This document shows, in pieces, positions 18,255 through 63,080 of a stretch of DNA of 64,000 nucleotides. Every line of letters begins with the position of its first letter. Within the stretch, counting starts at the first letter, position 1. Both the position numbers and the translations under genes were made by a program. The notes under the pieces are model-generated. The model ran no database searches, had not been told where the DNA came from, and worked only from the letters and a program-made list of their open reading frames with translations. Source of the DNA: Siphonodentalium dalli (taxonomy: Eukaryota > Mollusca > Scaphopoda > Gadilida > Siphonodentaliidae); contig CP136066.1 of the NCBI GenBank assembly GCA_032622095.1, forward strand, positions 198,328,816 through 198,392,815, read 5' to 3'.

Positions 18255-18840
18255 GAAGTGTCTTGGTGGCTCATGTATCCCGGTCGAGGGATAGTTGCAT
18301 TGTCGGAAAATAATGTGGTTCTTGTGCGAGTCGGAAAGGAATGATCTACAAGTACCTTGGTGGTTCGTGTATCCCATTTGAGAGATTGTAAAATTTAATG
18401 TCGGAAAATAATGTGGTTTGGAGAGGAATTATCTAAAAGTGCTTTGGTGGTTAACCCTTTACCCAACAAACCGGCCAAATAAAGCTTCAACAGCCTAAAT
18501 TATCTTGGGTCTGTCTCAATAAAACCATACAAATATGGATATCATTGGAACCGGCTCCTTGACCACATTGTGATAGTTACAGTTATGCCCTGTGCCAATT
18601 CATTCTCTTATATATGCGAGTCGACCATAGGTCGCCTCGCATATATAAGAGAATGCATTGGCCTAAAAAAATCTGTTTTTGTGTTAAGCCAATGCATGTG
18701 TTAAGCCAATGCATTCTCTTATATATGCGAGGCGACCTATGGTCTACTCGCATATATAAGAGAATGCATTGGCACAGGGCCCTTCTGTTGGGTAAAGGGT
18801 TAATGTATCCCATTTGAGGGATAGTGGTGTCCAATAAATG
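18255..18840 (+). repeat. ~97-bp tandem repeat interrupted by MITE E1
   Basis: CTTGGTGG..CGTGTATCCC-type units begin near 18262 and 18356, and each includes GTCGGAAAATAATGTGG. The third unit is split: its start, CTTTGGTGG, is at 18442-18450 and its continuation, TGTATCCCATTTGAGGGAT, follows the MITE at 18804. Confidence 0.85.
18451..18803. mobile_element. TTAA-flanked MITE E1, copy 1
   Basis: It begins TTAACCCTTTACCCAACA and ends with the complement, TGTTGGGTAAAGGGTTAA. TTAA target duplication with CCC-initial ends is characteristic of the piggyBac superfamily. Two 67-bp palindrome modules sit inside in opposite order at 18595-18661 and 18706-18772. No transposase is present. It interrupts a tandem repeat whose unoccupied copies give the pre-insertion site. 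A second full copy is at 58041-58440 and an end fragment at 31378. Confidence 0.9.
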
Positions 18841-19086
18841 CATCATTAATTTTGTCACATACTCATAAATTTTCGCCATATCTGGTACTATAACACTGAA
18901 CGCTGTCTAGTTGAATGACGATTCTTGTCTTGTTCTTGCAATGTAGTGTGAATAATATTTGCATAAGAAATCTGCTTAAAACTTTTCTACTTCGTCTATT
19001 TGCATGAGTGGAAAGCATTGGCACAGCAATCAACCAAGTGCACTTATTAATAATGGCTAATAATTGTGAGAACATTATGTACTACT

Positions 19087-19350
19087 TTAACCCTTTCATG
19101 ACGGGAGCTGCCATGGTGCAGCATTAAAGATCATGTGCCAGTACATTCGCTTATTTATGCGAGTCTCCCATATATAGGCAGCCTCGTATATATAAGAGAA
19201 TGCACTGGCTTACAACCCTAATGTAAATATTGGGCAAATGAATTCTCTTATATATGCGATGCTCCCACTGGGAGACTCGCTTATATAAGAGAATGCATTG
19301 GTACAGGGTTTTCACAAAAATTCTGGAAGCTCCATTCATGGAAGGGTTTA
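19087..19350. mobile_element. TTAA-flanked MITE E2, copy a
   Basis: It starts TTAACCCTTTCATGACGGGA and ends ATTCATGGAAGGGTTTA, so the right TTAA has become TTTA. It carries two palindrome modules of the CTCCC/GGGAG type, read CCAGTACATTC..ATGCACTGGC and CAAATGAATTC..ATGCATTGGT. The left end has a TGCAGCATTAAAGATCATG segment and the right end has TTTTCACAAAAATTC. Related copies lie at 24.8, 25.96, 26.96, 31.79, 36.67, 41.16 and 62.75 kb. Confidence 0.85.
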
Positions 19351-19385
19351 TAATAGTTAACAATCTGCGAACAATATGTATGAAT

Positions 19386-19796
19386 TTAACCCTTTCAGTG
19401 CCAGGTCCGATTTTTGTATCAACCCATATATCCTGTGCCCATGCATTCTCTTATATATGCGAGTCGACCATAGGTCGCTTCGCATATATAAGAGAATGCA
19501 TTGGCCTAACAATTTTTCATCATTTGTTATTATTTTTTACAATTTTAATAATTTTTTCTTATATTCTTTAACAGACTTATTTTGTAGGTTTTGTGCCAGG
19601 GAATCTTACGTTTTTCATGGGCATCAAAATTATTACTATGAATACTGGGTGATAGTTTTGAATTATAAAATGCCCCTAAGGTTTTATCCAGTTTGTTTTT
19701 AAATTCGCTATAGCATGCTTAAGCATACCCAAAAAAAAAATTAATTTATAATAAATTTTAGGGCCTATTTTACGGCCCAAGCACTGAAAGGGTTAA
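19386..19796. mobile_element. TTAA-flanked MITE E4, copy 1
   Basis: Ends are TTAACCCTTTCAGTGCCAGG and GCACTGAAAGGGTTAA. A single palindrome module lies at 19438-19504. The rest is AT-rich, including CTTACGTTTTTCATGGGCAT. The matching unoccupied site, one TTAA at 20974-20977, lies 1.2 kb away in a duplicated host segment. Copy 2 is at 47923-48413 in the opposite orientation. The 108-codon frame across it is not regarded as coding. Confidence 0.9.
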
Positions 19797-20480
19797 ATGG
19801 AAGGCTGCCACTGCCGGTAGCGAATTGTATGCACTTATAAATGATGTAGATCCTACACCGGTAAGATTAAAGGGGCACTGTAAGCCATTTTCAATAAATT
19901 CCCGCTTTTAACAACGACTTAATATCGATAATATATAGAAACATAAGATATTCTGTAAACCTTCAGGTTAATAGGTTATCTTAAAATTAAAGTTAAGAAT
20001 TTGATATAAATTTAATTTATGGCTGCAGCCATAAGACGTAATCGAATTAATTGACGGAAAGTAGATTGGGCAGCACGTGGCATGCAGGTGGACGTGTAAA
20101 CAATTATGTTGATACGCGGCGTAAACTCAAGCCACTCGCTGACTTGACTGATTATACAATAACCTAAACTAGTATATAATATAACATTTATTTGATACAT
20201 TTTTGCTTGAAAACTGTACTAAAATTACTCGACAACGACAATTTGTATTTTCGCATTCCGGCTAATCTGCCATCCGTAACATTTCTTCGTACTCAGCAGA
20301 CGTTTAAATAATGGAAAACTGGTTACCTTACGGCTCAGTGGATATAGAAACCATCCACAACATTGGAGTACAGTATCCCTTTAAACAAATGTATTATCTG
20401 CTCGAGTGGAATCTGCGGTATTTCTCATGAGAATCATGCATGATTGCAATCTGAAGATTAATGACAATGGCTAAACAATT
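19797..20480 (+). repeat. Host duplicated block 1, interrupted by element I
   Basis: 19797-19870 and 20381-20480 together match 20978-21130: AGCGAATTGTATGCACTTAT, then GGTAAGATTAA, then GCTCGAGTGGAATCTGCGG and GATTAATGACAATG. The gap is filled by the TTAA-flanked element I, and E4 lies immediately upstream at another TTAA of the same block. Confidence 0.88.
19871..20380. mobile_element. TTAA-flanked MITE I
   Basis: Flanked by TTAA at 19867-19870 and 20381-20384. Terminal repeats are AGGGGCACTGTA and TACAGTATCCCT. The 510-bp interior has no coding capacity and lacks the 67-bp palindrome. The host copy at 21047-21050 retains a single TTAA, giving a clean unoccupied site. Its ends resemble those of element T at 54.6 kb. 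Confidence 0.9.
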
Positions 20481-20948
20481 GTGACCCGCCATATAAAATC
20501 CAGTCGTAAGTCGGGATTTTTTTACCCTGTGCCAATGCATTCTCTTATATATGCGAGTCGACCATAGGTCGCCTCGCATATATAAGAGAATGCATTGGCC
20601 TAACATTTTTTTACAATTTTATATACTGTGTTATGTACCAAATTGTGTTTGTTCTAATAATATAAACATTTATATATGAATCTCCATATATGGAGGATAA
20701 TAAAGATATATATATATATATGCTTCTATATATGTGTGGGGCTCCCTGCAGGGTAATGGATGTTTTTTATTTTATGTCCTAAAAATTGTAAGAAAAATTT
20801 ATTTAAAACAAATGATAAAAAATTGTTAGGCCAATGCATTCTCTTATATATGCGAGGCGACCTATGGTCGACTCGCATATATAAGAGAATGCATTGGCAC
20901 AGGGTAAAAAAATGCCGACTTACGATTGGATTTGATATGGCGGGTCAC
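20481..20948. mobile_element. MITE E3, copy a
   Basis: Ends are GTGACCCGCCATATAAAATC and the complementary GGATTTGATATGGCGGGTCAC. Two inverted palindrome modules lie at 20532-20598 and 20831-20897. The centre contains a GGGGCTCCCTGCAGGG motif. The flanking 4-mers AATT and AAGT match at 3 of 4. It lies at the junction between two duplicated host blocks. Three more full copies are at 30.0, 35.8 and 51.8 kb. Confidence 0.88.
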
Positions 20949-20954
20949 AAGTGT

Positions 20955-21130
20955 GCTAACAGTATGTATGACTTTAACGGAAGTCTGCCACTACCTGTAG
21001 CGAATTGTATGCACTTATAAATGATGTCGATCCTTCACCGGTAAGATTAAACGAAGGTAGTATATGCTCGAGTGGAATCTGCGGTATTTCTCATGAAAGT
21101 TGCAATCTAAAGATTAATGACAATGTTAAC
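20955..21130 (+). repeat. Host duplicated block 2, unoccupied
   Basis: The uninterrupted counterpart of 19360-20480. It keeps single TTAA sites at 20974-20977 and 21047-21050, exactly where E4 and element I are inserted in block 1. This makes it an internal reference for the pre-insertion state. Confidence 0.88.
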
Positions 21131-21285
21131 ATAGCGTGTTTCATGTGCAAACGAGTTAATTGCTATAAATCTGCAAGAAAACGCCGCTTCAAATGAGAAT
21201 CAGATGCAATGCTCCGGCTCATGTAAACCAATGATAATTACAGACTCGTTTCGTTATCTTAAGATCGCTGTTGTTGAACTGTTTG

Positions 21286-21500
21286 AAGATCGACACGGGT
21301 TGTGGTCCTGTGTACAGTGCGTAAAGAGTGTGCGATAACCAAGACACTCAACACCGTATTTTTGTGTTGGGGGAGTGATTGTCGGTTATCTACTCAATAC
21401 CGACAGGTTGAGTGGCGACTATTAGCGACACGGGTTGTGGTCCTATGTACGGTGAGGTGCGTAAATAGTGTGCGATAACGAGTACACTCAACACTGACCA
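21286..21500 (+). repeat. ~140-bp direct repeat left of minisatellite
   Basis: CGACACGGGTTGTGGTCCT occurs near 21292 and 21427, each followed by GTGCGTAAA.AGTGTGCGATAAC and ACACTCAACAC. The reverse complement of the GCGTAAA to CAACACC part is found at 22376-22421 on the other side of the minisatellite. Confidence 0.85.
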
Positions 21501-21595
21501 CTTTAGCTGCTTAATTATGGAAATGTAAAGTTCTTCTGAAGAAAACAAAATTATAAAATAATGTAAAATATTCTAAACATTTGTCGGTGTTTTGC

Positions 21596-22290
21596 GGCGG
21601 TTATCAGTGGTTCACGGTGATTCTCAGTGGTTCGCGATTATTCTCAGTGGTTTGTGGTGATTCTCAGTGATTCTCAGTGGTTCGCGATTATTCTCAGTGG
21701 TTTGTGGTGATTCTCAGTGGTTCACGGTGATTCTCAGTGGTTCGCGATTATTCTCAGTGGTTTGTGGTGATTCTCAGTGGTTCACGGTGATTCTCAGTGG
21801 TTCGCGGCGATTCTCAATGATTCACGGTGATTCTCAGTGGTTTGCGACGATTCTCAGTGGTTCGTGGTGATTCTCAGTTGTTCGTGGTGATTCTCAGTGG
21901 TTCGATGTGATTCTCAGTTGTTCAAGGTGAGTCTCAGTGGTTCGTGGTGATTCTCAGTAGTTCACTATGATTCTCATTGGTGCGTTGTGATGTTTAGTGG
22001 TTCGTGGTGATTCTCAGTAGTTCACTATGATTCTCATTGGTTCGTGGCGATTTTCAATGGTTCGTGGTGATGCTCAGTGGTTCATGGTGAGTCTCGGTGG
22101 TTCGTGGTGATTCTCAGTGGTTCTCAGTGGTTCTCAGTGGTTCATGGTGAGTCTCGGTGGTTCGTGGTGATTCTCAGTGGTTCGCGATGATTCCCAGTGG
22201 TTCACGGTGCGTCTCAATGGTTCTCTGTGATTCTCAGGGGTTCACGGTGAGTCTCAGTGATTCTTGGTGAGCCCTGGTCAGTCTCCAGGA
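21596..22290 (+). repeat. 20-bp minisatellite GGTGATTCTCAGTGGTTCAC
   Basis: About 34 copies of a 20-bp unit, with variants at the GTGGTTCGCGATTA positions and degeneration toward the right end (CAGTTG, CAATGG, CAGGGG). A two-unit alternation of GCGATTA and TTGTGGTGA forms is visible at 21600-21780. Confidence 0.96.
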
Positions 22291-22359
22291 TTTATGTTGA
22301 TTCATAGTAATCCACTCCACACAAGTGACCTACAGTGAGCTTTGTTCATATATGGGCCG

Positions 22360-24700: not shown

Positions 24701-24814
24701 ATTCAATTATTATTGCTGCGTTGGTTCCAAATTGATATATCTTTTAATAAAACCCCAAACAATTTTTAGGTCGTATTTAGGTACAAAATATTTTATCCCC
24801 AGGTACATAATATT

Positions 24815-25087
24815 ATATCCATTCCATGACGGGAGCTGTGCTGGTGCAGCATTAAAGATCCTGTGCCAGTGTATTCTCTTTTATATGCGAGTCTCCCATA
24901 GGGAGCCTCGCATATTTTACAGAATGCACTGGCTTACAAGTTCAAGGTAAACATTGTTAGGCCTATGCAGTGTACTTTGTTATATACATTACACGAGGCT
25001 CCCTATGGGAGACTCGCTTATATACGAAACTGCATAGGGACATGGCTTTCGTAAAATTTCAGGAAACTCCTGTCATGGAAGGGTTAA
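24815..25087. mobile_element. MITE E2, copy b
   Basis: The left end, ATTCCATGACGGGAGCTGTG, is degenerate. The right end is CTGTCATGGAAGGGTTAA with intact TTAA. Two palindrome modules with CTCCC/GGGAG tips are present, partly eroded. The element is bracketed by related AGGTCGTATTTA.GTACA segments at about 24770 and 25105. Confidence 0.8.
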
Positions 25088-25754: not shown

Positions 25755-25885
25755 CTAGGGAGCCTCGCATATATAAGAGAATGCACTGCATACAAGGTCA
25801 AGGTAAACATTGTTAGACCAATGTATTCTCTTATATATGCGAGGCTCCCTATGGGAGATTCGCATATATAAGAGCATGTCGTGAC
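25755..25885. mobile_element. MITE E2, internal fragment c
   Basis: Half a palindrome module (GGGAGCCTCGCATATATAAG), the GGTCAAGGTAAACATTGTTAG linker and one full module follow each other. Both element ends are missing. Confidence 0.75.
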
Positions 25886-25960: not shown

Positions 25961-26056
25961 TTAACCCTTTCATGAAGGGTGACTCGATTATATAAGAGAA
26001 TACATTGGAACATGGTTTTCGCAATATTTCAGCAAGCTCTAGTCATGGAAGAGTTA
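25961..26056. mobile_element. MITE E2, internally deleted copy
   Basis: TTAACCCTTTCATGA at the left joins directly to the last part of a palindrome module and the normal right end, CTAGTCATGGAAGAGTTAA. Only 96 bp of the ~265 bp element remain. The right TTAA (26053-26056) is also the left flank of the next element, G1. Confidence 0.85.
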
Positions 26057-26492
26057 AAGGCCCACTTAATTTTCGAGTTACCGATTATTTTTTTTATAGT
26101 GCCTTGATATACGGTTTTAATAAATATCTATGCCATAAAATATGATTGAAATGCTATAATTTATCACCAGGTGGAACGTCTGTGTCTCAGAGTAATAGAA
26201 AATAGCTGAAATCATAAAATCATTTCCCCCGTTATGACTCCCACAATGCAACAGAATTCAAACAACAGTTTATTTTCAATGAAAGAGGAATAACTCTATA
26301 TCTAAATATATAGTTATTCCCCTTCCATCGAAAGTAATATACTTCGTGCATAAACTTGAGCACACGACACTTTATCTCAACAAAATCAACATGTCCACAG
26401 TTTCTTTTACACCGGATAAAAATTGATAATACAATGTATTAGAGCTTCCTCTTTCAAATGGTATATCATATATGGCATATTTTTTATATAAT
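26057..26492. mobile_element. TTAA-flanked MITE G, copy 1 (right end lost)
   Basis: It starts AGGCCCACTTAATTTTCGA after TTAA and includes CGTCTGTGTCTCAGA, a GGAATAACTCTATAT..ATAGTTATTCC inner hairpin and TCCTCTTTCAAATGGTATAT. The distal inverted end seen in copies 2 and 3 is missing. Orientation is opposite to copy 2. Confidence 0.85.
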
Positions 26493-26854: not shown

Positions 26855-26960
26855 ACGTGCTGACCTAGACATCGTCTTTGAATGAGATTCACCTGTAGGG
26901 TGGATCGATGCTCCTATTATTATCGATATAAGACATCTAGCTGCGATATTAGTTCATTAA
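26855..26960 (+). repeat. Dispersed repeat family F, copy 2
   Basis: Matches 25166-25290 (TGAATGAGAT, GGATCGATG, AGACATCTAG, TTAGTTCATTAA) and stops where E2d begins. Sequence resuming at 28513 does not obviously continue the repeat. Confidence 0.65.
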
Positions 26961-27038
26961 CCGTTACATGAACGGAGCTTACTGAACTTTTCAGAAAACC
27001 ATGTGCTAATGCATATATACTCTTATTTATCGACAATA

Positions 27039-27457
27039 TGTTACACTGGTGTAAATAGGGTTCGGAGTGAATAAAATAGACACTGGGCCCTGATTGGTCA
27101 ATAGCCAGCCTTGTGTGCTTTTCACATAAAAAAATCATCACACCTCTTCCCTATGATTTCCCATAGGTAAAATAACCATTGGCACAGGAATTAACCCTTT
27201 GTAGTGAAGTTTGAATTGTTTGGTGTGGTCTAAAATATGACAGTATTTTTTATGCTGTTCTGACACTAGTTACGAAAACATAAGATTTAAAGGCGAATTC
27301 CCTGCTAGACACACATGATTTTTTGGTGTCAAAAGTTTCCCAAAATGTCAATTTTTCAGATTTAAAGAAAATTTTGGACCCAACATTTATATTGCCAACA
27401 CTATACGCTAAAATGTTAGCACTGAGGCCTATGGAAAACATTTACACCTGTGTAACC
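27039..27457. mobile_element. MITE C, copy 1
   Basis: Ends are (G/T)GTTACACTGGTGTAAAT and ATTTACACCTGTGTAACC, about 18 bp of inverted repeat. The 4-bp flanks AATA at 27035-27038 and 27458-27461 are identical. The 419-bp interior matches copy 2 at 29063 almost throughout but lacks about 36 bp after GAGTGA. It is non-coding. Superfamily is unassigned; a 4-bp duplication fits several eukaryotic groups. Confidence 0.9.
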
Positions 27458-27521
27458 AATAGGGAGCCTCGCATGTATCAGCGAATTAATACATTGGCCT
27501 AGCACTATTTACCTTGACCTT

Positions 27522-28382
27522 CACACGGCACAATTTTGACGATTCCGCGACCAATTTCACGATTCTGCGGCTTGACAACCACGGTGCTACGGCAGTTTAA
27601 CGATTCTTCGACCTTATTATACGTGTTATTTTTGACAAACTTAGATAAAGGGGCTTTTTACAGAATTTGGACGATAAAAATAGGCTACTTCTTGTGTTCA
27701 TTGTGTAGAGTAGATTTTGCAGGTCCACCAGATTGACTCACGGAATACATACGGGGATGAGATCTATACATAAAATGAGTCACAATCGGCTCGGTCAAAT
27801 CGGGACCATCAGATCAAACCGCGAACCGATCCCAAAAGTCATTTCTTGGGCTACAAGTGGACATTAACAGTGCGAAATTTAACACCCAACGTAAGCTTTG
27901 ATAAGCATAAATGTATGATTTGTCAAATTCTTACCCCTGCATGTTGACGCAATATTCGATGAAACTCGACCTAGAAATGCAGTAAAAATTAATGTCAACT
28001 ATTTGGCAACGCCCGGGTTCGACCATGACAACGACGATTGTGCGACTCGTTGAACGGTAATTTTCATTTGTATATATACGACGTATCTGACACTGATCTG
28101 GCAGCTTAGTTCTGCATGTAAGCCCTTGACCTCATAGATCTCATCCATGTATGTTCCGTGAGACAACCTGGTGGACCGGCAAAGTCTATTCTACACAATG
28201 AACACAAGAAGAAGCCCACTTTTATCGTCCAAATTCATTAAAAAAGCCCCTGTATCTAAGTTTGTCATAAAATATCACGTATAATTAGGTCGCAGAATCG
28301 GCAAACTGCCGTAACACCGTGGTTGTCAAGCCGCAGAATCGTGTAATTGGTCGCAGAATCGTCAAATCGATTGTGCCGTGTG
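27522..28382. mobile_element. Long-TIR element D
   Basis: The left end CACACGGCACAATTTTGACG returns inverted at the right, ending TTGTGCCGTGTG. The arms extend about 250 bp (27522-27775 and 28130-28382) with scattered differences and several GATTC.GCG words. The flanking 5-mers are ACCTT and ACATT. The 355-bp middle (27776-28129) has no recognisable coding sequence. No second copy is seen in the window. Confidence 0.88.
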
Positions 28383-28756
28383 ACATTGTAAGCCAGTACA
28401 TTCTCTTTTATATACAAGGCTCCCTATATGGGAGACTCGCATATATAATATAATGTACTGGCACATGATATTTAATGCTGCACCAACGCTGATCCCGTCA
28501 TGAAAGGGTTTATACGATTATAAAAAGATTCATGTCTATAGGACTAAATGAGTCGGACAGTTAACACAATTCGTCGATATCGTAATCCTCGCCAACACAT
28601 ATCAATCGAATTCCGGATTCGTTTCACTCCGATGAAATCCCCCGGACTAATCCGCCGACTTGACGTCACAAACTAGAGAAACGCCCACTTGGGTGAATGA
28701 TTTTCTATAAAGAATAACCCACATGAGATAAGAGCCTGTAGACTGGGTGACAGTCC

Positions 28757-29785
28757 GTTCAAAATCCATGCAGGGATTACCCCCCTTGTTGACCCGGTAA
28801 GACAGCTGCAAGTCTGCAACCGGCGACATTTTACCCACATTTGGTGAACTTCTGTGATATTAAGATGTATTATAAGCGAACAGAGCAACATGTTACCCGT
28901 ATAAGGCACACCAAATGTTGAACAAATGTGTGTAATTTCGTACCAAAAGTTTGGAAAGTCCCACTAGAACTTAATGCACTATATTGCGAAACGGTGTGAT
29001 TTGGTTACCCGATTATTTTATCAACACAAAAGTCTATATAAACGCACATGGACGTCACAACAGGTTACACTGGTGTAAATAAGGTTCCGAGTGACATCTA
29101 GCGGATGCGGGAGGAATATATAGGAGAGAATAAAATAGACACTGGGCCCTGATTGGTCAATAGCCTTGTGTGCTTTTCACATAAAAAAATCATCACACCT
29201 CTTCCCTATGATTTCCCATAGGTAAAATTACCATTGGCACAGGAATTAACCCTTTGTAGTGAAGTTTGAATTTTTTGGTGTGGTCTAAAATATAACTGTA
29301 TTTTTTCATGCGGTTCTGACACTAGTTACGAAAACATAAGATTTAAAGGCGAATTCCCTGCTAGACAGAGATGATTTTTTTGTGTAAAAAGTTTCCCAAA
29401 ATGTCAATTTTTCAGATTTAAAGACAGTTTTGGACCCAACATTTATATTGCCAACACTATACGCTAAAACGTTAGCACTGAGGCCTATGGAAAACATTTA
29501 CACCAGTGTAACCAACAAAACGCATGCAAGTAAAACACACGAGTTCTAATTTGGTGCAATTTTGAAAAGTAGCTTGCGAAAATTGTCAACAACACTACCG
29601 CTCTAATTCTCCATTATGTCATTAGGTTTTTATTGCGGAAATTTTGACTTTGGGGCGATCGATTTTGCCATTTTAGCTGGAAATCCCCGCGATAAATATA
29701 GAACACCACAGATTATATTACCCAGTCGGTTACAGAGTCTGAAGGAATCGTGATGGTGCGCTCTGGTAGAGATTGGGAGACTGGC
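28757..29785 (+). repeat. Dispersed repeat family A, copy 2, split by MITE C
   Basis: 28757-29062 and 29518-29785 together align to 44076-44655: ATGCAGGG.TTACC, ACCGGCGACATTTTACCCAC, GTTTGGAAAGTCCCACTAGA, then TTGGGGCGATCG and CTCTGGTAGAGATTG. The 451-bp interruption is MITE C copy 2. Confidence 0.9.
29063..29513. mobile_element. MITE C, copy 2
   Basis: Ends are GGTTACACTGGTGTAAAT and ATTTACACCAGTGTAACC, perfect over 18 bp. The target duplication is AACA at 29059-29062 and 29514-29517. The equivalent unoccupied sequence in family A copy 3 (near 44367) reads CACGACAACACGC against CACAACAAAACGC here. A 63-codon minus-strand frame is shared with copy 1 but is too short and motif-free to call. 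Confidence 0.93.
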
Positions 29786-30015: not shown

Positions 30016-30474
30016 GTGACCCGCCATATCAAATCCAGTCGTAAGTCGGGATTTTTTTTACCCTGTGCCAATGCATGCTCTTATATATGCGAGTCCACCA
30101 TAGGTCGCCTCGCATATATAAGAGAATGCATTGGCCTAACAATTTTTTACAATTTTAATAATTTGTTCTTGTATTCTTTAACAATTTTATAATTTCCCCC
30201 ATACAGAGCCCCAGACAAACATGAGCAGACGACACTCTTCTATATGCTTCTATATATGTGTGGGGCTCCCTGCAGGGTAATGGATGTTTTTTATTTTATG
30301 TCCTAAAAATTGTAAGAAACATTTTTTTTTTTTTTAAATGATAAAAAGTTGTTAGGCCAATGCATTCTCTTATATATGCGAGGCGACCTATGGTCGACTC
30401 GCATATATAAGAGAATGCATTGGCACAGGGTAAAAAAAATCCGACTTACGACTGGATTTGATATGGCGGGTCAC
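30016..30474. mobile_element. MITE E3, copy b
   Basis: Full length with GTGACCCGCCATATCAAATC ends. Palindrome modules are at 30068-30134 and 30357-30423, in inverted order. The flanking 4-mers are ATAT on both sides. A poly-T tract interrupts the second half. Confidence 0.9.
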
Positions 30475-31377: not shown

Positions 31378-31472
31378 TTAACCCTTTACCCAACAAACCG
31401 GCCAAAACGGCCAAATAAAGCTGCAACAGCCTAAATTATCTTGGGTCTGTCTCAATAAAACCATACAAATAT
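31378..31472 (+). mobile_element. MITE E1, left-end fragment
   Basis: TTAACCCTTTACCCAACA to CTGTCTCAATAAAACCATAC matches the first 95 bp of E1 and then stops. No palindrome module or right end follows. Confidence 0.9.
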
Positions 31473-31789
31473 GCTTTAACGAAACATAGATCAATATATC
31501 AATTGTTCATTACGTTTTGCAATAAAATTATTATAGGTAGTATATACAACAATTTAGCATTTATCAGTTAGAGGGGTTACAATCCTATATTATGTCATAT
31601 TCAACTGAGGGCATTGTGCTAAAGAATAAAAATAGCGTGCATAATATTAGTCAAATGTACCTAATATAGGAAATTCAGGTGGATTTTACGCCATTTCTCG
31701 ACATAAGTTTTACAATTTACGTTGAAATTCTTGAATCGAAATGTACCGACAATGAACTAAAATTGAAATCAAATGCACTACAAGTTCTG
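31473..31789. other. Unassigned AT-rich sequence
   Basis: Follows the truncated E1 fragment. Nothing recognised. Confidence 0.35.
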
Positions 31790-32044
31790 ACAACTCTTCC
31801 ATGACTGGAGCTTCTTGACATTTTGCGAAAACCCAGTGCCGATTATACATTGTCTTATATATGCGAGTCTCCCATATACGGAGCCTCGCATATATAAGAG
31901 AATACATTGGCCTATAAATATTTACATTGACTCTGTAAGCCAGTGCATTATCTTATGTATGCGAGGATCGCTATGGGAGACTTGCATATATAAGATAGGA
32001 TTTTCGCAAACAAATCAGGAAGCTATAAGTCACGGAAGGGTTAA
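31790..32044. mobile_element. MITE E2, copy e
   Basis: The left end, CTTCCATGACTGGAGCTTCT, has lost its TTAA; the right end is CACGGAAGGGTTAA. The two palindrome modules are partly eroded (tips TCTCCCATATACGGAGC and GATCGCTATGGGAGA). The linker TATTTACATTGACTCTGTAA is intact and serves as an unoccupied comparison for the element D site. Confidence 0.82.
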
Positions 32045-35778: not shown

Positions 35779-36237
35779 GTGATCCGCCATATCAAATCCA
35801 GTCGTAAGTCGGGATTTTTTACCCTGTGCCAATGCATTCTCTTATATATGCGAGTCGATCATAGGTCGCCTCGCATATATAAGAGAATGCATTGGCCTAA
35901 TATTTTTTTACAATTTTAATAATTTTTTCTTGTCTTCTTTAACAATTTTATAATTTCACCCACACAGAGCCCCAGAGAAACATGAGCAGACGACACTCTT
36001 CTATGTGCTTCTATATATGTGTGGGGCTGCCTGCAGGGTAATGGATGTTTTTTATTTTATGGTCTAAAAATTGTGCGAAACATTTATTTAAAAAAAAAAT
36101 GATAAAAAAATTGTTAGGCCAATGCATTCTCTTATATATGCGAGGCGACCTATGGTCGACTCGCATATATAAGGGAATACATTGGCACAGGGTAAAAAAA
36201 ATCCCGACTTACGACTGGATTTGATATGGCGGGTCAC
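35779..36237. mobile_element. MITE E3, copy c
   Basis: Ends are GTGATCCGCCATATCAAATC and GATTTGATATGGCGGGTCAC, with a perfect 4-bp flank ATAC on both sides (35775-35778 and 36238-36241). It carries two inverted palindrome modules. It lies just upstream of the third family R block. Confidence 0.92.
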
Positions 36238-36241: not shown

Positions 36242-36610
36242 ATGGAAACCTAGTGAAATGTCGGGGAAACGTATTAGTCCATGTGGACGAACAATCGCGG
36301 CTATCAATATTAGAAAAAAATATGTGTCATTTTCGTCCCAACTATCAACTCCCTTTTGTAAAATACAATGTCTTGTCTGAATGTTTGTTCAGCTTGGGCC
36401 GTGAGAACAAACTATTCGATATCGATATTGGTCAAGGACAATGGTGTGTCTGAATGAGGAGAGGTCGGAGGAACGTAATACGAGACAGGCAGCGACGCGT
36501 CGACGTTATTACCTTATAATAACATAAAGTGTGCTGATTTCGGTCCAACAACTCTCCACTCCTTTTGGTCAAGGACAAGGATGTGTATGAAAGATCTGAG
36601 ACGCTCATTA
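36242..36610 (+). repeat. Repeat family R, block 3
   Basis: GTGGACGAACAATCG, ATCAATATTAGAAAA and CCAACAACTCTCCACTCCTT with GGTCAAGGACAAGG mark at least two more diverged units. Confidence 0.72.
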
Positions 36611-36671: not shown

Positions 36672-37283
36672 TTAACCCTTCCATGGCTGGAGCTTCTTGT
36701 AATTTTACTACCACGTGGAGCCTCGCATATATAAGAGAATACACCGGCCTTACGATATTTACATTGACCTTGTAAGTCAGAGCATGCTCTAATATATATT
36801 CGAGGCTCCCTATATGCTAGCATATATAAGATAATGCACTGGCACATGATGTTTAAAGGCCCACTTAATTTTCGAACCCCCATATTATATAAAATATATG
36901 TCATATTATATACCATTTGAAAGAGGAAGCTCCAAAACATTGTCAACTTATCCGGTGTAATAAACTGTGCACATGTTGTTTTTGTTGAGTTTCCAACGGG
37001 GGGAATAACTCTATATATTAAAGATAGAGTTATTTCCATTCCATTGAAACAGTTTGAATTATGTTGCATTCTGGGTGCCAGAGGGGGGAAGTCTTCAGCA
37101 TTTTCTATTTATCTGTGTGCATCTTCTGAGACACATATGTTTCAAATAGTGATGAATTATAGTATTTTAATCATATTTTATGGCATAGATTGTTATTAAA
37201 ACCATATATCAAGTCACTATAAAAAAAATAATCGGTGACTCGAAAATTAAGTGGGCCTTACTGCTACATCAGCGCAGGGTTAA
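36672..37283. mobile_element. MITE E2, copy f, interrupted by MITE G
   Basis: The left end is TTAACCCTTCCATGGCTGGA. One eroded and one partial palindrome module follow, then GGCACATGATGTTTAA. There G copy 2 is inserted, and the E2 right end, CTGCTACATCAGCGCAGGGT, resumes after it. The linker TATTTACATTGACCTTGTAA is unoccupied here. Confidence 0.85.
36857..37258. mobile_element. MITE G, copy 2
   Basis: It starts AGGCCCACTTAATTTTCGA after TTAA and ends TCGAAAATTAAGTGGGCCT. The right flank is TACT, so the right TTAA is damaged. It contains GTTTTTGTTGAG, an inner GAATAACTCT..AGAGTTATT hairpin and TCTGAGACACA. The 153-codon minus-strand frame over this region spans two transposons and is rejected as a gene. 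Confidence 0.9.
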
Positions 37284-38054: not shown

Positions 38055-39044
38055 ACATGTTATCCTACTCTCAAGATGCTATCCTACTCTCAAGATGTTA
38101 TCCTTCTCTCAAGATGTTATCATACTCTCAAGATGTTATCCTACTATCAAGATGTTATCATACTCTCAAGATGTTATCCTACCATCAAGATGTTATCCTA
38201 CTCTCAAGATGCTATCCTACTCTCAAGATGTTATCCCACTCTCAAGATGTTATCCTACTCTCAAGATGTTATCCTACTCTCAAGATGCTATCCTACTCTC
38301 AAGATGCTATCCTACTCTCAATATGTTATTCTACTCTCAAGATGTTATCCTACCATCAAGATGTTATCCTCCTACCATCAAGATGTTATCTTACTCTCAA
38401 GATGCTATCCTACTCTCAAGATGTTATCCCACTCTCAAGATGTTATCCTACTCTCAAGATGTTATCCCACTCTCAAGATGTTATCCTACTCTCAAGATGC
38501 TATCCTACTCTCAAGATGTTATCCTACTCTCAAGATGTTATCCTACTCTCAAGATGTTATCTACTCTCAAGATGCTATCCTACTCTCAAGATGCTATCCT
38601 ACTCTCAATATGTTATCCTACTCTCAAGATGTTATCCTACTCTCAAGATGCTATCCTACTCTCAAGATGTTATCCTACCCTCAAGATGTTATCCTACTCT
38701 CAAGATGTTATCCTACTCTCAAGATGTTATCCTACTCTCAAGATGCTATCCTACTCTCAAGATGTTATCCTACCCTCAAGATGTTATCCTACTCTCAATA
38801 TGTTATCCTACTCTCAAGATGTTATCCTACTCTCAAGATGCTATCCTACTCTCAAGATGTTATCCTACCCTCAAGATGTTATCCTACTCTCAAGATGTTA
38901 TCCTACCCTCAAGATGTTATCCTACTCTCAAGATGCTATCCTACTCTCAAGATGTTATCCAACCCTCAAGATGTTATCCTACTCTCAAGATGTTATCCTA
39001 CTCGCAAGATGCTATCCTACTCTCAAGATGCTATCCTACTCTCA
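38055..39044 (+). repeat. 19-bp minisatellite CTCAAGATGTTATCCTACT
   Basis: About 52 head-to-tail copies, with common variants GATGCTATCC, CTACCATC, CTACCCTC, AATATG and CCCACTC. The unit has no stop in any + strand frame, and 19 is not a multiple of three. All three frames therefore read the same 19-residue peptide cycle (SQDVILLSRCYPTLKMLSY) and stay open for 346-402 codons. One frame runs into unrelated sequence up to 39177. There is no independent sign of coding. Confidence 0.97.
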
Positions 39045-41161: not shown

Positions 41162-41804
41162 TTAAACCTTTCGTGATTGGAGCTTCCTGAGATTTTGCGA
41201 AAACCATGTGACAATGCATTCTCTTATATATGCGAGTCGACCATATAAGAGAATGCATTGTCAAAGGGTCAAAACAAATTATAATTGTTAAAAATGTAAG
41301 AAAAAATGATAAAAAATTGTTAAAGAATGTAACAAATAATGATAACAATTGTTAAAGAATGTAAAAAATATGATAAAAATTGATAAAGAATGTAAGAAAA
41401 ATTGATAAAAAATGATAAAGAATGTACGAAAAAATGATAAAAAAAATGTTATAGAATGTAAGAAAAAATTATAAAAATGATACAAATTGTTTAATAATGT
41501 AAGAAATAATGATAAAAATGATAAAATTGTGCAAGAATATAAGAAAAAAAATGATAAAAAATGTTATAGAATGTAAGAAAAAGATAAAAATGATCAAATT
41601 TGTTAAAGAATGTAAGAAAATTTTTATAAATAATGATAAAAAATGATAAAAATTGTTAAAGAATGTAAGAAATATTGATATGCCAATGCATTCTCTTATA
41701 TATGCGAGGCGACCTATGGTCGACTCGCATATATAAGAGAATGCATTGGCACATGGTCTTTAATGTTGCGCCAGCGCAGCTCCCGTCATGCACTAAAGGG
41801 TTAA
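41162..41804. mobile_element. MITE E2-type element E5 with internal minisatellite
   Basis: The left end is TTAAACCTTTCGTGATTGGA and the right end GCTCCCGTCATGCACTAAAGGGTTAA in two parts, flanked by TTAA. The first palindrome module is shortened and the second is full, with a CGACC/GGTCG tip rather than the CTCCC/GGGAG tip common in E2. Between them (41283-41675) an AATGATAAAAAATTGTTAAA-type unit is repeated about a dozen times. Confidence 0.85.
41283..41675 (+). repeat. AT-rich ~30-bp minisatellite inside E5
   Basis: Units of roughly 25-35 bp built from GATAAAAA, TTGTTAAAGAATGTAAGAAA. A single similar unit, TTGTAAAAAATTGT or TTAAAGAATATAAGAAAA, sits next to the palindrome module in E4 copy 2, so this looks like an in-place expansion. 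Confidence 0.9.
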
Positions 41805-47922: not shown

Positions 47923-48413
47923 TTAACCCTTTCAGGGCCAGGGGCCGATCTAATCGGCCCTAATTTACGGTCTGTAAAATCGGCCCTAAAAAAATAAAAA
48001 ATAAAAAATAAATGTTTTTTTTTTTTTTTATTAGATTTGTTTTGGGTTGAATTTTTTTTTTGGTAAGCTTAAGCATGCTGTATCGAATTTAAAAACAAAC
48101 TGGATAAAACCTTAGGCATGTTATAACTCAAAACTATCACCAAATATTCATAGTAATAATTTTGATGCCCATGAAAAACGTAAGATTCCCTGGCACTAAA
48201 CCTACAAAATAAGTCTGTTAAAGAATATAAGAAAAAATTATTAAAATTGTAAAAAATTGTAAAAAATAATAACAAATGATGAAAAATTGTTAGGCCAATG
48301 CATTCTCTTATATATGCGAGGCGACCTATGGTCTACTCGCATATATAAGAGAATGCATTGGCACAGGGTATATGGGTTGATACAAAAATCTGACCTGGCA
48401 CTGAAAGGGTTAA
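47923..48413. mobile_element. TTAA-flanked MITE E4, copy 2
   Basis: Ends are TTAACCCTTTCAGGGCCAGG and GACCTGGCACTGAAAGGGTTAA in two parts, with TTAA on both sides. It is oriented opposite to the copy at 19386. It has one palindrome module near the right end and extra AT-rich runs on the left that make it about 80 bp longer. Confidence 0.9.
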
Positions 48414-49526: not shown

Positions 49527-49602
<76 letters not shown>

Positions 49603-51833: not shown

Positions 51834-52299
51834 GTGACCCGCCATATCAAATCCAGTCGTAAGTCGGGATTTTGTTTTACCCTGTGCCAATGCATTCTCT
51901 TATATATGCGAGTCGACCATAGGTCGCCTCGCATATATAAGAGAATGCATTGGCCTAACACTTTTTTACAATTTTAATCAAAAAAAATTCTTGTATTCTT
52001 TAACAATTTTATAATTTCACCCATACAGAGCCCCAGACAAACATGAGCAGACGACACTCTTCTATATGCTTCTATATATGTGTGGGGCTCCCTGCAGGGT
52101 AATGGATGTTTTTTTTATTTTATGTCCTAAAAATTGTAAGAAACATTTATTTAAAAAAAATGATAAAATATTTTTTAGGCCAATGCATTCTCTTATATAT
52201 GCGAGGCGACCTATGGTCGACTCGCATATATAAGAAAAGGCATTGGCAAAGGGTAAAAAAAATCCCGACTTACGACTGGATTTGATATGGCGGGTCACA
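51834..52299. mobile_element. MITE E3, copy d
   Basis: Full length with GTGACCCGCCATATCAAATC ends and flanks ATAT on both sides. Two inverted palindrome modules are present; the second has lost part of its outer arm (AAGAAAAGGCATTGGCAAAG). Confidence 0.9.
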
Positions 52300-53204: not shown

Positions 53205-53900
53205 ACCAGCCTATATGTTTCACATAGGGAGAAGTGACTTCTCACTACTAGTCACTAGACCAGTACTCAGGAACCAGCCTGAATGATTCAAATTGGGAGA
53301 AGTGACTTCTAACTAGACCGGTACTTATGGACCAGCCTATAGGTTTCACACAGGTGGAAGTGACTTCTCACTAGACCGGTACTCAGGGACCAGCCTATAT
53401 GTTTCACATAGGGAGAAGTGACTTCTCACTAGACCGGTACTCAGGTACCAGCCTATAGGTTTCAAATTGGGAGAAGTGACTTCTCACTAGACCGGTACTT
53501 ATGGACCAGCCTATAGGTTTCACACAGGTGGAAGTGACTTCTCACTAGACCGGTACTCAGGGACCAGCCTATATGTTTCACATAGGGAGAAGTGACTTCT
53601 CACTAGACCGGTACTCAGGTACCAGCCTAGAGGTTTCATATTGGGAGAAGTGACTTCTCACTAGACCGGTACTTATGGACCAGCCTATAGGTTTCACACA
53701 GGGGGAGTGACTTCTCACTAGACCGGTACTCAGGGACCAGCCTATATGTTTCACATAGGGAGAAGTGACTTCTCACTAGACCGGTACTCAAGGACCAGCC
53801 TATATAGAGGTTTCACATATGGAGAAGTGACTTCTCGCTAGACCGGTACTCATGGACCAGCCTAGAGGTTTCGAATGGGAGAAGTGACTTCTCCCTGTTA
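53205..53900 (+). repeat. 58-bp array with trimeric higher-order pattern
   Basis: Twelve units share GACCAGCCTATA.GTTTCA, GAGAAGTGACTTCTC and CACTAGACCGGTACT. From the third unit, three variants alternate in order: ACTTATGGACC..CACACAGGTGG, ACTCAGGGACC..CACATAGGGAG and ACTCAGGTACC..ATTGGGAG. The trimer repeats three times with about 175-bp spacing. GAGAAGTGACTTCTC is a 15-bp palindrome. Confidence 0.95.
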
Positions 53901-54924: not shown

Positions 54925-54928
54925 TTAA

Positions 54929-58040: not shown

Positions 58041-58440
58041 TTAACCCTTTACCCAACAAACCGGCCAAAACCGGCCAAATAAAGCTTCAACAGCCTAAAA
58101 TATCTTCGGTCTGTCTCAATAGAACCATACAAATATGGATATCATTGGAACCGGCTCCTTGACCACATTGTGATAGTTACAGTTATGCCCCGTGCCAATG
58201 CATTCTCTTATATATGCGAGTCGACCATAGGTCGCCTCGCATATATAAGAGAATGCATTGGCCTAAAAAAAAACCTTTTTTTAACACTTTTTACCATTTT
58301 TTCTTACATTCTTTAACAATTTTATAATTTTTAATGTGTTAAGCCAATTCATTCTCTTATATATGCGAGGCGACCTATGGTCGACTCGCATATATAAGAG
58401 AATGCATTGGCACAGGCCCTTCTGTTGGGTAAAGGGTTAA
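58041..58440. mobile_element. TTAA-flanked MITE E1, copy 2
   Basis: Ends are TTAACCCTTTACCCAACA and TGTTGGGTAAAGGGTTAA, with about 400 bp between the outer bases. Two inverted palindrome modules are present at about 58195-58261 and 58344-58410. It is longer than copy 1 by a CTTACATTCTTTAACAATTT linker between modules and a duplicated CCGGCCAAAA. Confidence 0.93.
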
Positions 58441-58558
58441 ACTGATATCAAGTTTGTTCATGTATGCACTTTTTGTGAACTTTTTTATTAGTTGTATTTC
58501 GCGCTTTCCTGTTGATGTCCCAACTCATCGCGTTTACGTATTTGTTTGCGAAGATTGA

Positions 58559-59885
58559 TTGCATTAACGGACTGACTCGGTTGTTCGTTGATTTGAGATG
58601 TATTAACGGACTGACTCGGTTGTTCGTTGATTTGAGATGTATTAACGGACTGACTCGGTTGTTCGTTGATGCATTAACGGACTGACTCGGTTGTTCGTTG
58701 ATTTGAGATGTATTAACGGACTGACTCGGTTGTTCGTTGATTTGAGATGCATCAACGGACTGACTCGGTTGTTCGTTGATGCACTAACGAACTGACTCTG
58801 TTGTTTGTTGATTGTAGATGCATTACCGGACTGACTCGGTTGTTCGTTGATGCATTAACAGACTGACTCTGTTGTTCGTTGATTTGAGATGCATTAATAG
58901 ACTGACTCGGTTGTTCGTTGACTGGATATGCATTAACGGACTGACGCGATTGTTCGTTGATTTGAGACACATTAACGGACTGACTCAGTTGTTTGTTGAT
59001 TGGAGATACATTAACGGACTGACTCGGTTGTTCGTTGATGCATTAACGGACTGTCTCGGTTGTTCGTTGATTTGGGATACATTAACGGACTGACTCGGTT
59101 GTTTGTTGATGCGTTAGCGGACTGACACGGTTGTTCGTTGATGCATTAACGGACTGTCTCGGTTGTTCGTTGATTTGGGATACATTAACGGACTGACTCG
59201 GTTGTTTTTTTATGCGTTAACGGACTGTCTCGGTTGTTCGCGTTGATTTGAGATACATTAACGGACTGACTCGGTTGTTTGTTGATGCAGTAACGGACTG
59301 ACTCGGTTGTTCGCGTTGATTTGAGATACATTAACGGACTGACTCGGTTGTTTGTTGATGCAGTAACGGACTGACTCGGTTGTTCGTTGATGCGTTAACG
59401 GACTGACTCGGTTGTTCGTTGATTGGAGATGGATTAACGGACTGACTCGGTTATTCGTTGATGCGTTAACGGACTGACTCGGTTGTTCGTTGATTGGAGA
59501 TGGATTAACGGACTGACTCGGTTGTTCGTTGATTGGGAGACGCATTAACGGACTGACTCGGTTGTTCGTTGATTGGAGATGGATTAACGGACTGACTCGG
59601 TTGTTCGTTGATTTGGAGACGCATTAACGGACTGACTCGGTTGTTCGTTGATTGGTGATGGATTAACGGACTGACTCGGTTGTTCGTTGATTTGGAGACG
59701 CATTAACGGACTGACTCGGTTGTTCGTTGATTGGTGATGGATTAACGGACTGACTCGGTTGTTCGTTGATTTGGAGACGCATTAACGGACTGACTCGGTT
59801 ACCCGTTGATTGGAGACGCATTAACGGACTGACTCGGTTGTTCGTTGATGCGTTAACGGACTGACTCGGTTGTTCGTTGATTGCA
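58559..59885 (+). repeat. Minisatellite ACGGACTGACTCGGTTGTTC
   Basis: More than 40 copies of ATTAACGGACTGACTCGGTT then GTTCGTTGAT, joined by short GTTGAT or GATTTGAGATGC linkers, giving steps of roughly 24-40 bp. Toward the right, a two-part alternation with GATTGG.GATGG and GATTTGGAGACGC linkers is regular. Sibling P units carry only one or two copies of the motif. Minus-strand frames reading NEQPSQSVNAS cycles are by-products. Confidence 0.96.
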
Positions 59886-60061
59886 TTGGAGACGCATGTA
59901 GAATGTATCTCTGATAGATGCTTCGATGTTCTCCCATATCGTTTATTGTTACTTCAAAGGATCTTTAAACAGATTCCACACAATGTCTTAATTTTTGTTC
60001 TTCATTGATTGGAGATGCATACAAGATGGGTTAAGACCCTACTGGTGTCAATTTGAAGAGT

Positions 60062-60072
60062 TTGACCCCCCC
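60062..60072. repeat. Poly-C tract
   Basis: Eleven or so C residues, of uncertain length. Confidence 0.85.
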
Positions 60073-60234
60073 CCCTTACGAGCCAGTGCACGCGCTATAT
60101 CTCGCTGACAAAATGAAACTTTGACAGTAAAATATCAGCGATTTACCACTTAAATTCACGAAACACAGTTTTTCCCCTAACCTTCTGCCACCAAAAACCA
60201 CCGAAATGCCCATATATGCGCTGTTTTCTGTTTT

Positions 60235-60430
60235 ACCCTTTCTATGCTATTTGGATTCTCCCATTCAGTTATAAAAGTATACATTTGAATGGTCTACTAT
60301 TCATCTGGAGGGGTGCTCATGGAGAATAAGCAGACGATAGATAATAAACGTAAGTATGAGTCCTGTTTATTGGAGGGAAATGATTATAAAATAAGATCAA
60401 GAAGCGTTTGTTGAACTTACTATATGACCT
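60235..60430 (-). repeat. Dispersed repeat family L, copy 2 (inverted)
   Basis: Reverse complement of 31126-31325, including TGGATTCTCCCATTCAGTTA, TTGAATGGTCTACTATTCAT and AGCAGACGATAGATAATAAA. It directly precedes the left arm of the large inverted repeat. Confidence 0.75.
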
Positions 60431-61273
60431 TAAAGACATATTATGGACTTGTTCGGGTGCGTTAAACTGTTTAGTTGGTATTCAGGCACTATGCCAACTG
60501 GGGGAATGTAGCAATCTACTACACCGCCGAAATCTCAAGCAAATCCACCGTACCACTCCATAGAAAACATAATCTGATCTACGCTCAATTGTAAATATTT
60601 ACTTCTCGATTCGGGACGCAACTATCGGGGGAAAAAGTAACGAAAACGATTTCGCCATCGAGAGTCACTGAATTTAATTAATATATAATAATGACGGTGT
60701 GCGTTGTCAGTTTGGATTTAATATTTGTAAAAATAACTACTTTGAGCAAAAGTATTCTCCATTTCTATTGGATCACCCTACCGGAGTGTTTCACATCACT
60801 TTAATATCAGCTAAAATTTTATGGTGACTACTCATCAATTAAAGGGTTAATCACGAGTAGCATTGCCCCTAGATTCCAAAATAATATCTTACCTTAAGGC
60901 AGCGATATCCAAGAAACCTATATATGTAATTAATTATTCCAATTTAATTTCCTGAACAAAACTACCCGTGTGTAATCATGATAAAGACACTACTCGTGTA
61001 TTAACACATGAGAACTCCGACGAAGAATTTATCGCAGAGCGCCCGATCACTGACCGATGTCGCTCGATGCATTAACGGACTGACTCGGTTGTTCCTTGAT
61101 TGGAGATGCCTATAGAATTTATCTCTGATATATAGACACTTCGATGTTCTCACATATCGTTTACTGTGAATTCAAAGCCGTTCGAAACAGATTCCACGCA
61201 ATTGTTTAAAATGATGTGGAACACTCTTATGTGTGATCGAATGGGTGTGTAAAATCCCCATACAAAGAAATTT

Positions 61274-61570
61274 GATCACATTTCCCCTGTTCTTGAAAAT
61301 TGCAGTGGCAACCCATCAGGCATCGGATCAATTTTAAAAAGCTACTAATTGTCTACAAATGCTACTATAAGCTAGCACTATCCTACCTGGCTGAATTCAG
61401 TGTTGGCACAATATGAACCGGCCTATCCTCTAAGGTCTCGAAATGCGTGCAATCTTGTACTGAACCCCGGTGACCTCAGAACGTGCGGCGATCGAGCATT
61501 TTCGGTAGCTGGGCCATTTCTTTGGAACCAACTACCCATTTGGTATACCCAGGTATATCTAATTTCATAA
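61274..61570 (+). pseudogene. LINE (CR1/L2-like) reverse-transcriptase C-terminal relic
   Basis: Three + strand frames in succession encode the conserved tail that follows the reverse-transcriptase domain in CR1/L2-type non-LTR retrotransposons. 61274-61300 reads DHISPVLEN. 61300 onward reads LQWQPIRHRINFK and later YKCYYKLALSYLAEF. After a second frameshift, 61412-61567 reads YEPAYPLRSRNACN and then GDRAFSVAGPFLWNQLP, ending at TAA 61568-61570. In intact elements these blocks form one uninterrupted C-terminus after the polymerase domain, which acts in target-primed reverse transcription. Here everything upstream is missing (5' truncation) and two frameshifts break the frame, so it is dead. 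It lies between the arms of the large inverted repeat. Clade assignment is from motif memory only. Confidence 0.85.
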
Positions 61571-61944
61571 ATTTTATATCCCAATTGGCAGTAAGCATTC
61601 CTTCTTATGTGTAAATTATAAAGGTTTATTAGAAAACAAATCATAATTAAATATTGTATGGCTTATATACACATGTGAAAATAGCTATGTGTTATACATT
61701 GAAATGTTATACCTGAACTGTTATGCATGTGATCTAAATCTAACTGCATGTATTACAGGGTGACCTACAGCTTGGAATTTTAAATGATTACCTTTACTTT
61801 AAAAATAATTTAATGTATCTACAAAGATAATATAAATATGGATCTGGGGACAAGTTACAAATCACACAACTTGCCCCTCTGTACTATCACAACGGATTGA
61901 ACTGCCTTCTTTTCTTATATCACTGTGCTAATATTTTATAAAAT
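61571..61944 (+). other. Sequence downstream of the LINE relic
   Basis: AT-rich, no ORF. It may include the LINE 3' untranslated region, but no poly-A or short tandem tail is clear. Confidence 0.35.
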
Positions 61945-62105
61945 TACACTAATAAGTCTCGATGATGAAAAATAATAGATTTCAAAAATTTATTTCTAAT
62001 AACTCTGAGCTTTGGTAGGTGGGTTCCTCGACTCGAAGCAAATATTTTTTACCACCCGAATCCAAATAAATAGTAATTGAGGGTAGCTTAATCGGATTAT
62101 GCATC
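61945..62105 (-). repeat. Dispersed repeat family K, copy 8 (inverted fragment)
   Basis: AAGTCTCGATGATGAAAAAT, CTCTGAGCTTTGGTAGGTGG, TTCCTCGACTCGAAGCAAAT and GCTTAATCGGATTATGCATC match the beginning of K in reverse. Confidence 0.9.
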
Positions 62106-62747
62106 TTAAAGTGATGTGAAACACTCCGGAGGGTGATCAAATAGAAATGGAGAATAATCTTGCTAAAAGTAGTTATATTATACAAATATTATATCCAAAT
62201 TGACACGAAACACCATCATTCTTATATATATATATATTAACTAAATAGAGCGACTCTCGAAGGTGAAATCGTTTTCGTTGGTTTATCGCCGGTATAGTTA
62301 CGTCCCGAATCGAGAGGTAAATATTTACAATTGAGCGTAGTTCAGACGATGTTTTCTATGGAGTGTTACGGTCGATTTGCTTGAGATTTCGATGATGTTA
62401 GTATAATTATACATTCCACCAGTTGGCATATATAGAGCGAACCCGAATAAGTCCATAATATATCTTTAAAGAAATTTCTTACATTCAATTATAATTATGC
62501 AACGACTCTCATCAGAAGAACCATTGCGTTTGTTTATCAAAGAAAGTTCGTCCCGTACTGAGGAGTTTTTGTTTACAATTGTTCGCAGTCCAGACGTTCT
62601 GTTTTCTGAAAGTGTACGATCGATCAGTGTGACTGGAATTCTCGATAATCTTATAGTTGAATGCTATCATCTGTCGGTGCGCAAACTGCATGTGTACATA
62701 TACGCACTCATTAGTTTGAATCAACAAAAGAAGTACATAATACGTCC

Positions 62748-63080
62748 TCAACCCTTACATGACTGGAGTTTCTTGAAATTTGCGAAAACCCTGTGTCAAT
62801 GCATTCTCTTATATATGCGAGTCTCCCATATCGATCCTCGCATATATAAGAGAATATGTTGGCCTAACAATATATACCTTGACCTTTTTGTCTAAACATA
62901 TTTTTATTGTAATATAATATTACAAGAGGGATCGGGGCACAAGTTTTGACAACTTACACCCGCCCATCTCCCATTGTAACCATTGCATTCTCTTATATAG
63001 GGAGCCTCGCATATATATATATAAAAGAATGCACTGGGACAAGATTGTAATGCTGCACCAGCGAATCTTGAAAGCGTTAA
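62748..63080. mobile_element. MITE E2-type element E6
   Basis: The left end is TCAACCCTTACATGACTGGA and the right end CCAGCGAATCTTGAAAGCGT followed by TAA. The first palindrome module is nearly complete; the second is shortened (CATTGCATTCTCTTATATAG then GGAGCCTCGC). A family H fragment (about 62893-62965) appears in the linker. Confidence 0.8.

Follow-up and report, generated by a model that had tools for sequence, protein, structure and literature searches.

Miniature inverted-repeat transposable elements (MITEs) are usually told apart by their ends, and each family is thought to be a deletion product of one autonomous element. The elements considered here share an interior. They lie in a 64 kb window (the whole stretch of DNA analysed, G000:C6:198328816-198392815) of the genome of the scaphopod mollusc Siphonodentalium dalli, which comprises 2,226,750,531 bases in nine contigs. 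Four families, named E1 to E4, carry the same 67-bp palindromic module within a common core, while their ends differ. An older MITE-like core was probably captured a few times between unrelated transposon ends, with each chimera then amplified via its own ends.

Several described systems resemble these elements in part. Non-autonomous piggyBac-like MITEs share with E1, E2 and E4 the adjoining TTAA, the CCCTT tips and the absence of any coding capacity that could be seen. The present case differs in that three families with differing ends hold one interior, which is also present in E3, an element with a 4-bp target duplication. In piggyBac and piggyBat, short palindromes are bound by the transposase (PMC11707139). 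A 67-bp palindrome common to several families is something different. In bivalves, HINE/Helentron elements (Cg_HINE) and pearl-type elements consist of flanks, a palindrome and tandem repeats, and their flanks and centres are described as recombinable (PMC7492417, PMC5139131). As described there, these elements have related flanks and unrelated centres, whereas E1-E4 have one centre and unrelated flanks. The terminal inverted repeats of E1, E3 and E4 and the duplications at E3 speak against membership in the Helitron/Helentron (HINE) group; Helentrons are not known to have either terminal inverted repeats or target duplications.

Two further groups invite comparison. Foldback elements such as Tetris have long inverted repeats, as does the E3 copy E3a (145 bp). 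In foldback elements, inverted repeats make up most of the element; the arms of E3a span 145 nt each in a 468-bp element, and E1 is asymmetric, with a long left and a short right end. MITEs with internal tandem arrays (miDNA4, Xstir) hold AT-rich arrays inside, as does E2h, an element with E2 ends. For miDNA4, capture of a pre-existing repeat by a MITE has been proposed (PMC12628747). E1-E4 differ from both groups in being four families, with two kinds of target duplication, that contain the same subterminal palindrome. Modular elements with exchanged centres are already known; one centre between ends of differing target specificity was not found in the open-licence literature searched.

A shared core with a common boundary

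The preliminary description of this window had reported about 30 occurrences, whole or partial, of a 67-bp hairpin, placed mostly as an inverted pair in E1, E2 and E3 and as a single copy in E4, with TTAA flanking E1, E2 and E4 but apparently not E3. All of this was confirmed. A profile search (matches at E < 0.01, merged) recovers 30 module loci in the window, whole or partial, and E3 has a 4-bp duplication. When one module and its flanks are folded as DNA, the predicted energy is -36.1 kcal/mol (z = -12.6). The unit is partly AT-rich, but chance or composition as the source of the similarity is refuted by the counts. The 13-base arm CCAATGCATTCTC, allowing up to 2 mismatches, matches the window 47 times against a mean of 1.87 in 100 shuffles, and the 21-mer GCATTCTCTTATATATGCGAG, allowing up to 3, matches 49 times against 0 expected. 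Across the genome the arm has 172,766 + 172,551 = 345,317 exact copies, as opposed to 7 + 2 = 9 for its reversed control.

With two arms per module, these exact arms correspond to an estimated 170,000 or so module copies, roughly 0.5% of 2.2 Gb. Genome-wide repeat counts may be lower bounds, as very common words were possibly skipped. Some arm copies also lie in tandem-duplicated blocks of contig C1, and consequently the genome total does not consist entirely of independent insertions. In these blocks (G000 C1, ~735-795 kb and 820-926 kb), successive places are about 14.6 kb or 11.2 kb apart, a pattern that suggests large tandem duplications containing E-type elements, which inflate the counts.

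Two versions of the palindrome exist. An old tip, TCTCCCATAGGGAGC, is found in E2, and a young tip, TCGACCATAGGTCGC, in E1, E3, E4 and the E2-ended element E2h. Two paired changes distinguish the old tip from the young one; within E2, a single paired change distinguishes A-side from B-side modules. The palindrome has one constant mismatch next to the tip, which gives it a direction; the two modules of E1 are inverted copies of each other, as are those of E3.

From outside to inside, the shared unit consists of CCCTGTG, the 67-bp palindrome, CYTAA and an AT-rich tract. The full core continues from the AT-rich tract into an inverted copy ending in CACAGGG, and E4 holds one half only. For wider coverage, 20 evenly placed stretches totalling 200 kb were sampled beyond the window, giving 264 kb in all. 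In 27 young E1, E3 and E4 modules from this set, identity across families is 0.92-1.00 at positions -7 to -1 and 0.30 at position -8. Within CYTAA, the C, T, A and A are conserved across families at 0.94-1.00, and the Y at 0.40. Inward of this motif, insertions and deletions disrupt the column alignment. The AT-rich tracts of E1, E3, E4 and E2h are related in 10 of 10 local comparisons, each scoring above the best of 60 shuffles. The shared part is therefore a core and not the palindrome alone: the 67-bp unit first proposed is indeed common to the families, but was drawn too small by 7 bp outward (CCCTGTG) and by CYTAA and the AT-rich tract inward.

Six contexts meet the core at the same boundary, namely E1 left, E1 right, E2-A, E2-B, E3 and E4, with the E2-A boundary reading CCTGTG/CATGTG. 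Among the exact arms in the genome, 152,002 are preceded by CCCTGTG and 149,350 by TTARG, together 87% of the 345,317. The remaining arms are tentatively attributed to units with point changes in their flanks.

Different ends around one interior

E1, E2 and E4 start with CCCTT(T) and adjoin TTAA. This motif is present on both sides of E1a, E1b, E4a, E4b and E2h, while other E2 copies have it on one side or in a worn form. E3 starts with GTGACCCGCC and lacks a TTAA duplication. Both ends could be read in six copies. The 4-bp duplication is exact in five of them, four having ATAT and one ATAC, and in the sixth three of four bases agree (AATT/AAGT). A seventh copy, L031, has AAAT on both sides, judged by eye. 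Terminal inverted repeats are present in E1, E3 and E4. E1 has ~133 bp on the left and ~20 bp on the right before the core, and E3 is symmetric.

It is highly improbable that E1-E4 are a single family with diverged ends. Such a relationship would account for the CCCTT start and adjoining TTAA of E1, E2 and E4, and for the first 8 bases common to E2-A and E4-left. However, the modules of E1, E3 and E4 lie about 1% from one consensus, yet the ends cannot be aligned beyond their first bases, and E3 has a different target duplication. The modules were compared in a set of 28, comprising 27 full-length copies of the 29 in E1, E3 and E4 (omitting a truncated E3, L009, and E4a, with a 66-bp local match) and one from E2h. 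Sixteen of the 28 match the consensus exactly; on average, a module departs from it at 0.61 of 67 positions. When outer ends were compared at E <= 0.05, the matches were E1's and E4's own terminal repeats, the 8 bases of E2-A and E4-left, and matches of 9 bases linking E3 to E4-right and to its own interior; this comparison is blind to weak homology on account of its word size, and missed the similarity of E2-A and E2-B, although 17 of 19 bases at their tips can be matched by eye. Homology outside the module, named in the preliminary description as grounds for regarding E1-E4 as diverged members of one family, exists to the letter, as the families have CCCTGTG, CYTAA and the AT-rich tract in common. 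In substance it does not, as their outer ends are not shared. That the inside is shared while the ends differ, as originally described, holds across elements with TTAA and elements with the 4-bp duplication.

The genome has 128 piggyBac-transposase matches, many of them without an internal stop. In the 12 such loci that were read, end matches to E1-E4 reach at most 11-14 bp, apart from weak 27-bp matches of E1-left. Two piggyBac-type loci (L046 and L047) have one end, TTAACCCTTTATCTGC, which resembles E1, E2 and E4 in its first bases only.

Exchange, probable capture and alternative origins

The 264 kb contain 59 modules passing E 1e-3, and all 59 lie within E1-E4: 14 in E1, 30 in E2, 12 in E3 and 3 in E4. 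Every E2 module was checked against E2 end and spacer matches. Solo modules with their own target duplication, which the preliminary description had put forward as a check, did not appear. None of the 59 modules is solo, and none of the 25 examined for repeats has its own duplication, the longest abutting direct repeat being 3 bp. These observations make it very unlikely that the palindrome or core is a mobile parasite still inserting into MITEs. Such a parasite could explain the same core in families with unrelated ends, and the E3 context, TTTA-core-TAAA, could be a TA duplication. The sequence TTAACCCTGTGCCAATGCATTC, in which the core stands next to TTAA, also has 327 genome copies. Of six such loci read, five are copies of E1, E2 or E3 with deletions, point changes or truncation (an E1 without its right end, one E2, two E3 and a left-truncated E3), and the sixth is an unclear piece. 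Free TTAA copies of the core were thus not borne out by these six loci. The unclear locus, L034, has near its position 1500 a single young-type module beside TTAA, and its left side lacks any recognised E end. A further point against an active parasite is that E1 is nearly monomorphic for the tip: genome-wide, E1-left adjoins the young tip at 36,554 places and the old tip at just 2.

Young modules are as alike across families as within them. Differences per 67 bp average 1.24 within families and 1.18 between them (n = 28, permutation p = 0.63); in an earlier set of 15 modules from the window, the averages were 1.74 and 1.70. Consequently, the core has been copied between elements. Of the original proposal, that the palindrome moves or is copied between elements or is itself a parasite, the copying stands; a self-moving palindrome or active parasite is not supported. 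Mean divergence from the consensus is 0.57 of 67 in E1 and 0.73 in E3, while old E2 modules differ from the old consensus at 116 of 1,424 bases, or 8.1% (22 modules).

Once inside a family, the core rarely changes hands. E2-A adjoins the old tip at 4,221 places and the young tip at 67, of which 14 belong to one tandem-duplicated C1 copy; E3 ends number 20,012 in the genome. The element E2h is likely a case of exchange, with a young core in an old E2 copy. One of its modules, at 41683-41749, has 0/67 differences from the young consensus, and substitutions are more frequent in its ends (7/86) than in its modules (2/118, p = 0.037).

Whether hairpin pairing is maintained in each copy was addressed in 23 modules (19 distinct), with a mixed outcome. 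Paired cells (92.2% vs 88.9%) and covariation (0.118 vs 0.068) exceed all 500 shuffles, while stricter measures show no excess: changes on both sides number 5 vs 3.7 (109/500 shuffles as high), and further pair types 16 vs 15.3 (196/500). At the paired sites of 22 old modules, 98 changes affect one side, 5 affect both sides with pairing kept and 1 affects both with pairing lost. As one-sided changes dominate, the palindrome degrades once it has been inserted, and the symmetric changes in the tip and at position 4/64 are those of the source lineages. Two explanations would account for symmetry that was kept in these lineages and lost from inserted copies: selection acting on the source, or correction of one arm with the other as template.

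Capture of the core offers the following account. The palindrome would originally have been the subterminal part of a MITE-like core, whose old form is that of the old TTAA family E2. In a later form the tip would have changed without losing its self-complementarity, and the two modules would have come to enclose an AT-rich array. This form was then probably captured as a unit, a few times and by whatever molecular route, between other ends, both of the TTAA type (E1, E4) and of the 4-bp-duplication type (E3), so that the direction would run from an E2-like element to the others. Each chimera would have borne the core from birth and been amplified by a transposase recognising its own ends, which would have brought the core to its present 170,000 or so modules. 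At present the core would be a passenger only, with rare ectopic conversion placing a young core in old E2 copies.

The E1 pattern with 0-30 bases in place of the core occurs at 7 places: CCCTGTG or CCCTGTA is still present at 6 of them, and part of the tip at the seventh; the equivalent E4 pattern occurs at 2 places, both with CCCTGTG. As all nine retain core remnants, they are deletions and not ancestors. No core-less E1 or E4 was found in the genome with one pattern for each of these two families.

The main rival to capture is template switching in each family: in the repair of the gap left by excision, the ends would have been copied, an abundant palindromic E2-type element used as filler and the strands rejoined. 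The outcome would be the same, but the core would never have behaved as a unit. This is possible, though it seems the less probable route. E1 resembles a derivative formed by internal deletion, in which 133 bp from the left end and ~20 bp from the right enclose filler, and hairpin-mediated deletions are seen in these elements. Abortive gap repair is an accepted origin of defective elements (PMC4168063). However, random switch points would not be expected to coincide to the base in all six contexts, whereas a common boundary is expected of a captured unit with defined ends. Capture at the founding of each family is therefore preferred.

Several observations nevertheless weigh against capture. 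No clear target duplication marks insertion of the core: TTTA-core-TAAA in E3 allows a TA duplication, and E1 reads ATG-core-CCG. No free core that could have served as donor was found in the 264 kb or at the six TTAACCCTGTGCCAATGCATTC loci. The module occurs in none of the 12 piggyBac-transposase loci read (of 128; about five kinds). The two paired tip changes and the paired A/B change represent few independent events, and the E2h comparison concerns a single element with a modest p value. Lastly, the search for core-less elements, made with one exact pattern each for E1 and E4, would miss diverged ancestors.

A more doubtful suggestion is that the core acts as a portable amplification cassette, whereby any ends that acquire it become highly successful MITEs, whatever the transposase. 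Its paired hairpins would help excision, replication or escape from silencing. If so, E1, E3 and E4, despite their two kinds of target duplication, would have expanded more or less together because they acquired the same cassette; the mean module divergences of E1 and E3 are the basis for this timing.

Elements of the window and their significance

The elements and fragments found in the window are collected in Table 1. The pieces at 26957-28510 are taken from their order to be one E2 element.

Table 1. Copies and fragments of E1-E4 in the 64 kb window (window coordinates)
Feature	Coordinates	Strand	Structure
E1a	18451..18803		TTAA, left end 18455-18587, modules 18595-18661 and 18706-18772 (inverted), short right end, TTAA
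E1b	58041..58440		Modules 58195-58261, 58344-58410; AT-rich tract between
E1 left-end fragment	31378..31473	+	~87 bp of element without module, then other sequence
E2a	19087..19348		A-end, module 19138-19208, spacer, module 19235-19301, B-end; old tips
E2b	24816..25087		Modules 24866-24932, 24971-25037; old tips
E2 inner fragment	25756..25884		Half module 25756-25788, spacer, module 25818-25879; both ends lost
E2 copy, internally deleted	25961..26057		One module half
Split E2 copy (putative)	26957..28510	-	B-end 26957, A-end 28510, two nested insertions; module pieces 27445-27487, 28393-28461
E2f	31792..32044	-	Modules 31841-31910, 31940-32000; old tips
E2g	36672..36856	-	Module pieces 36710-36746, 36777-36842
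E2h	41162..41804	-	E2 ends, young core: modules 41211-41261 (tip deleted), 41683-41749; AT-rich array 41283-41673 between
E2i	62750..63080	-	Modules 62796-62862, 62980-63037
E3a	20481..20948		Ends GTGACCCGCC; modules 20532-20598, 20831-20897 within 145-bp inverted repeat
E3b	30016..30474		Modules 30068-30134, 30357-30423; duplication ATAT
E3c	35779..36237		Modules 35829-35895, 36119-36185; duplication ATAC
E3d	51834..52298		Modules 51887-51953, 52180-52246; duplication ATAT
E4a	19386..19796	+	TTAA, ends CCCTTTCAGTGCC; single module 19438-19504, then AT-rich tract
E4b	47923..48413	-	Single module 48295-48361, then AT-rich tract; TTAA both sides

Other repeats occur among these elements. A repeat beginning TTAACCCTTTGTAGTGAAG is present at 27191-27440 and 29246-29496; the two copies are 95% identical, CAGGAA precedes both, and the first sits between the two ends of one E2 copy. 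Nested within the spacer of the split E2 copy (26957-28510) is a long inverted repeat at 27535-28366, with arms of 98 and 105 nt. At 38057-39044, ~52 copies of the 19-bp unit ATGTTATCCTACTCTCAAG form an array that is open in all three forward frames. Further tandem arrays lie at 4207-5368 (12-bp unit), 7876-9017 (145 bp), 12062-13548 (137 bp), 53252-53893 (58 bp) and 58553-59883 (39 bp). Exact scans gave no match to the module or to the E1, E3 and E4 ends in a viral collection, nor to the module in a prokaryote collection. Rfam had no match anywhere in the window, and a Pfam search with 10 selected open reading frames of the window returned a single match, below threshold, to a family whose function is unknown.

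The joining of one interior of known boundary to the ends of different transposons makes the origin of MITEs by core capture directly testable. It also has implications for the annotation of such elements, as repeat libraries clustered on interiors would merge elements that are moved by different enzymes.

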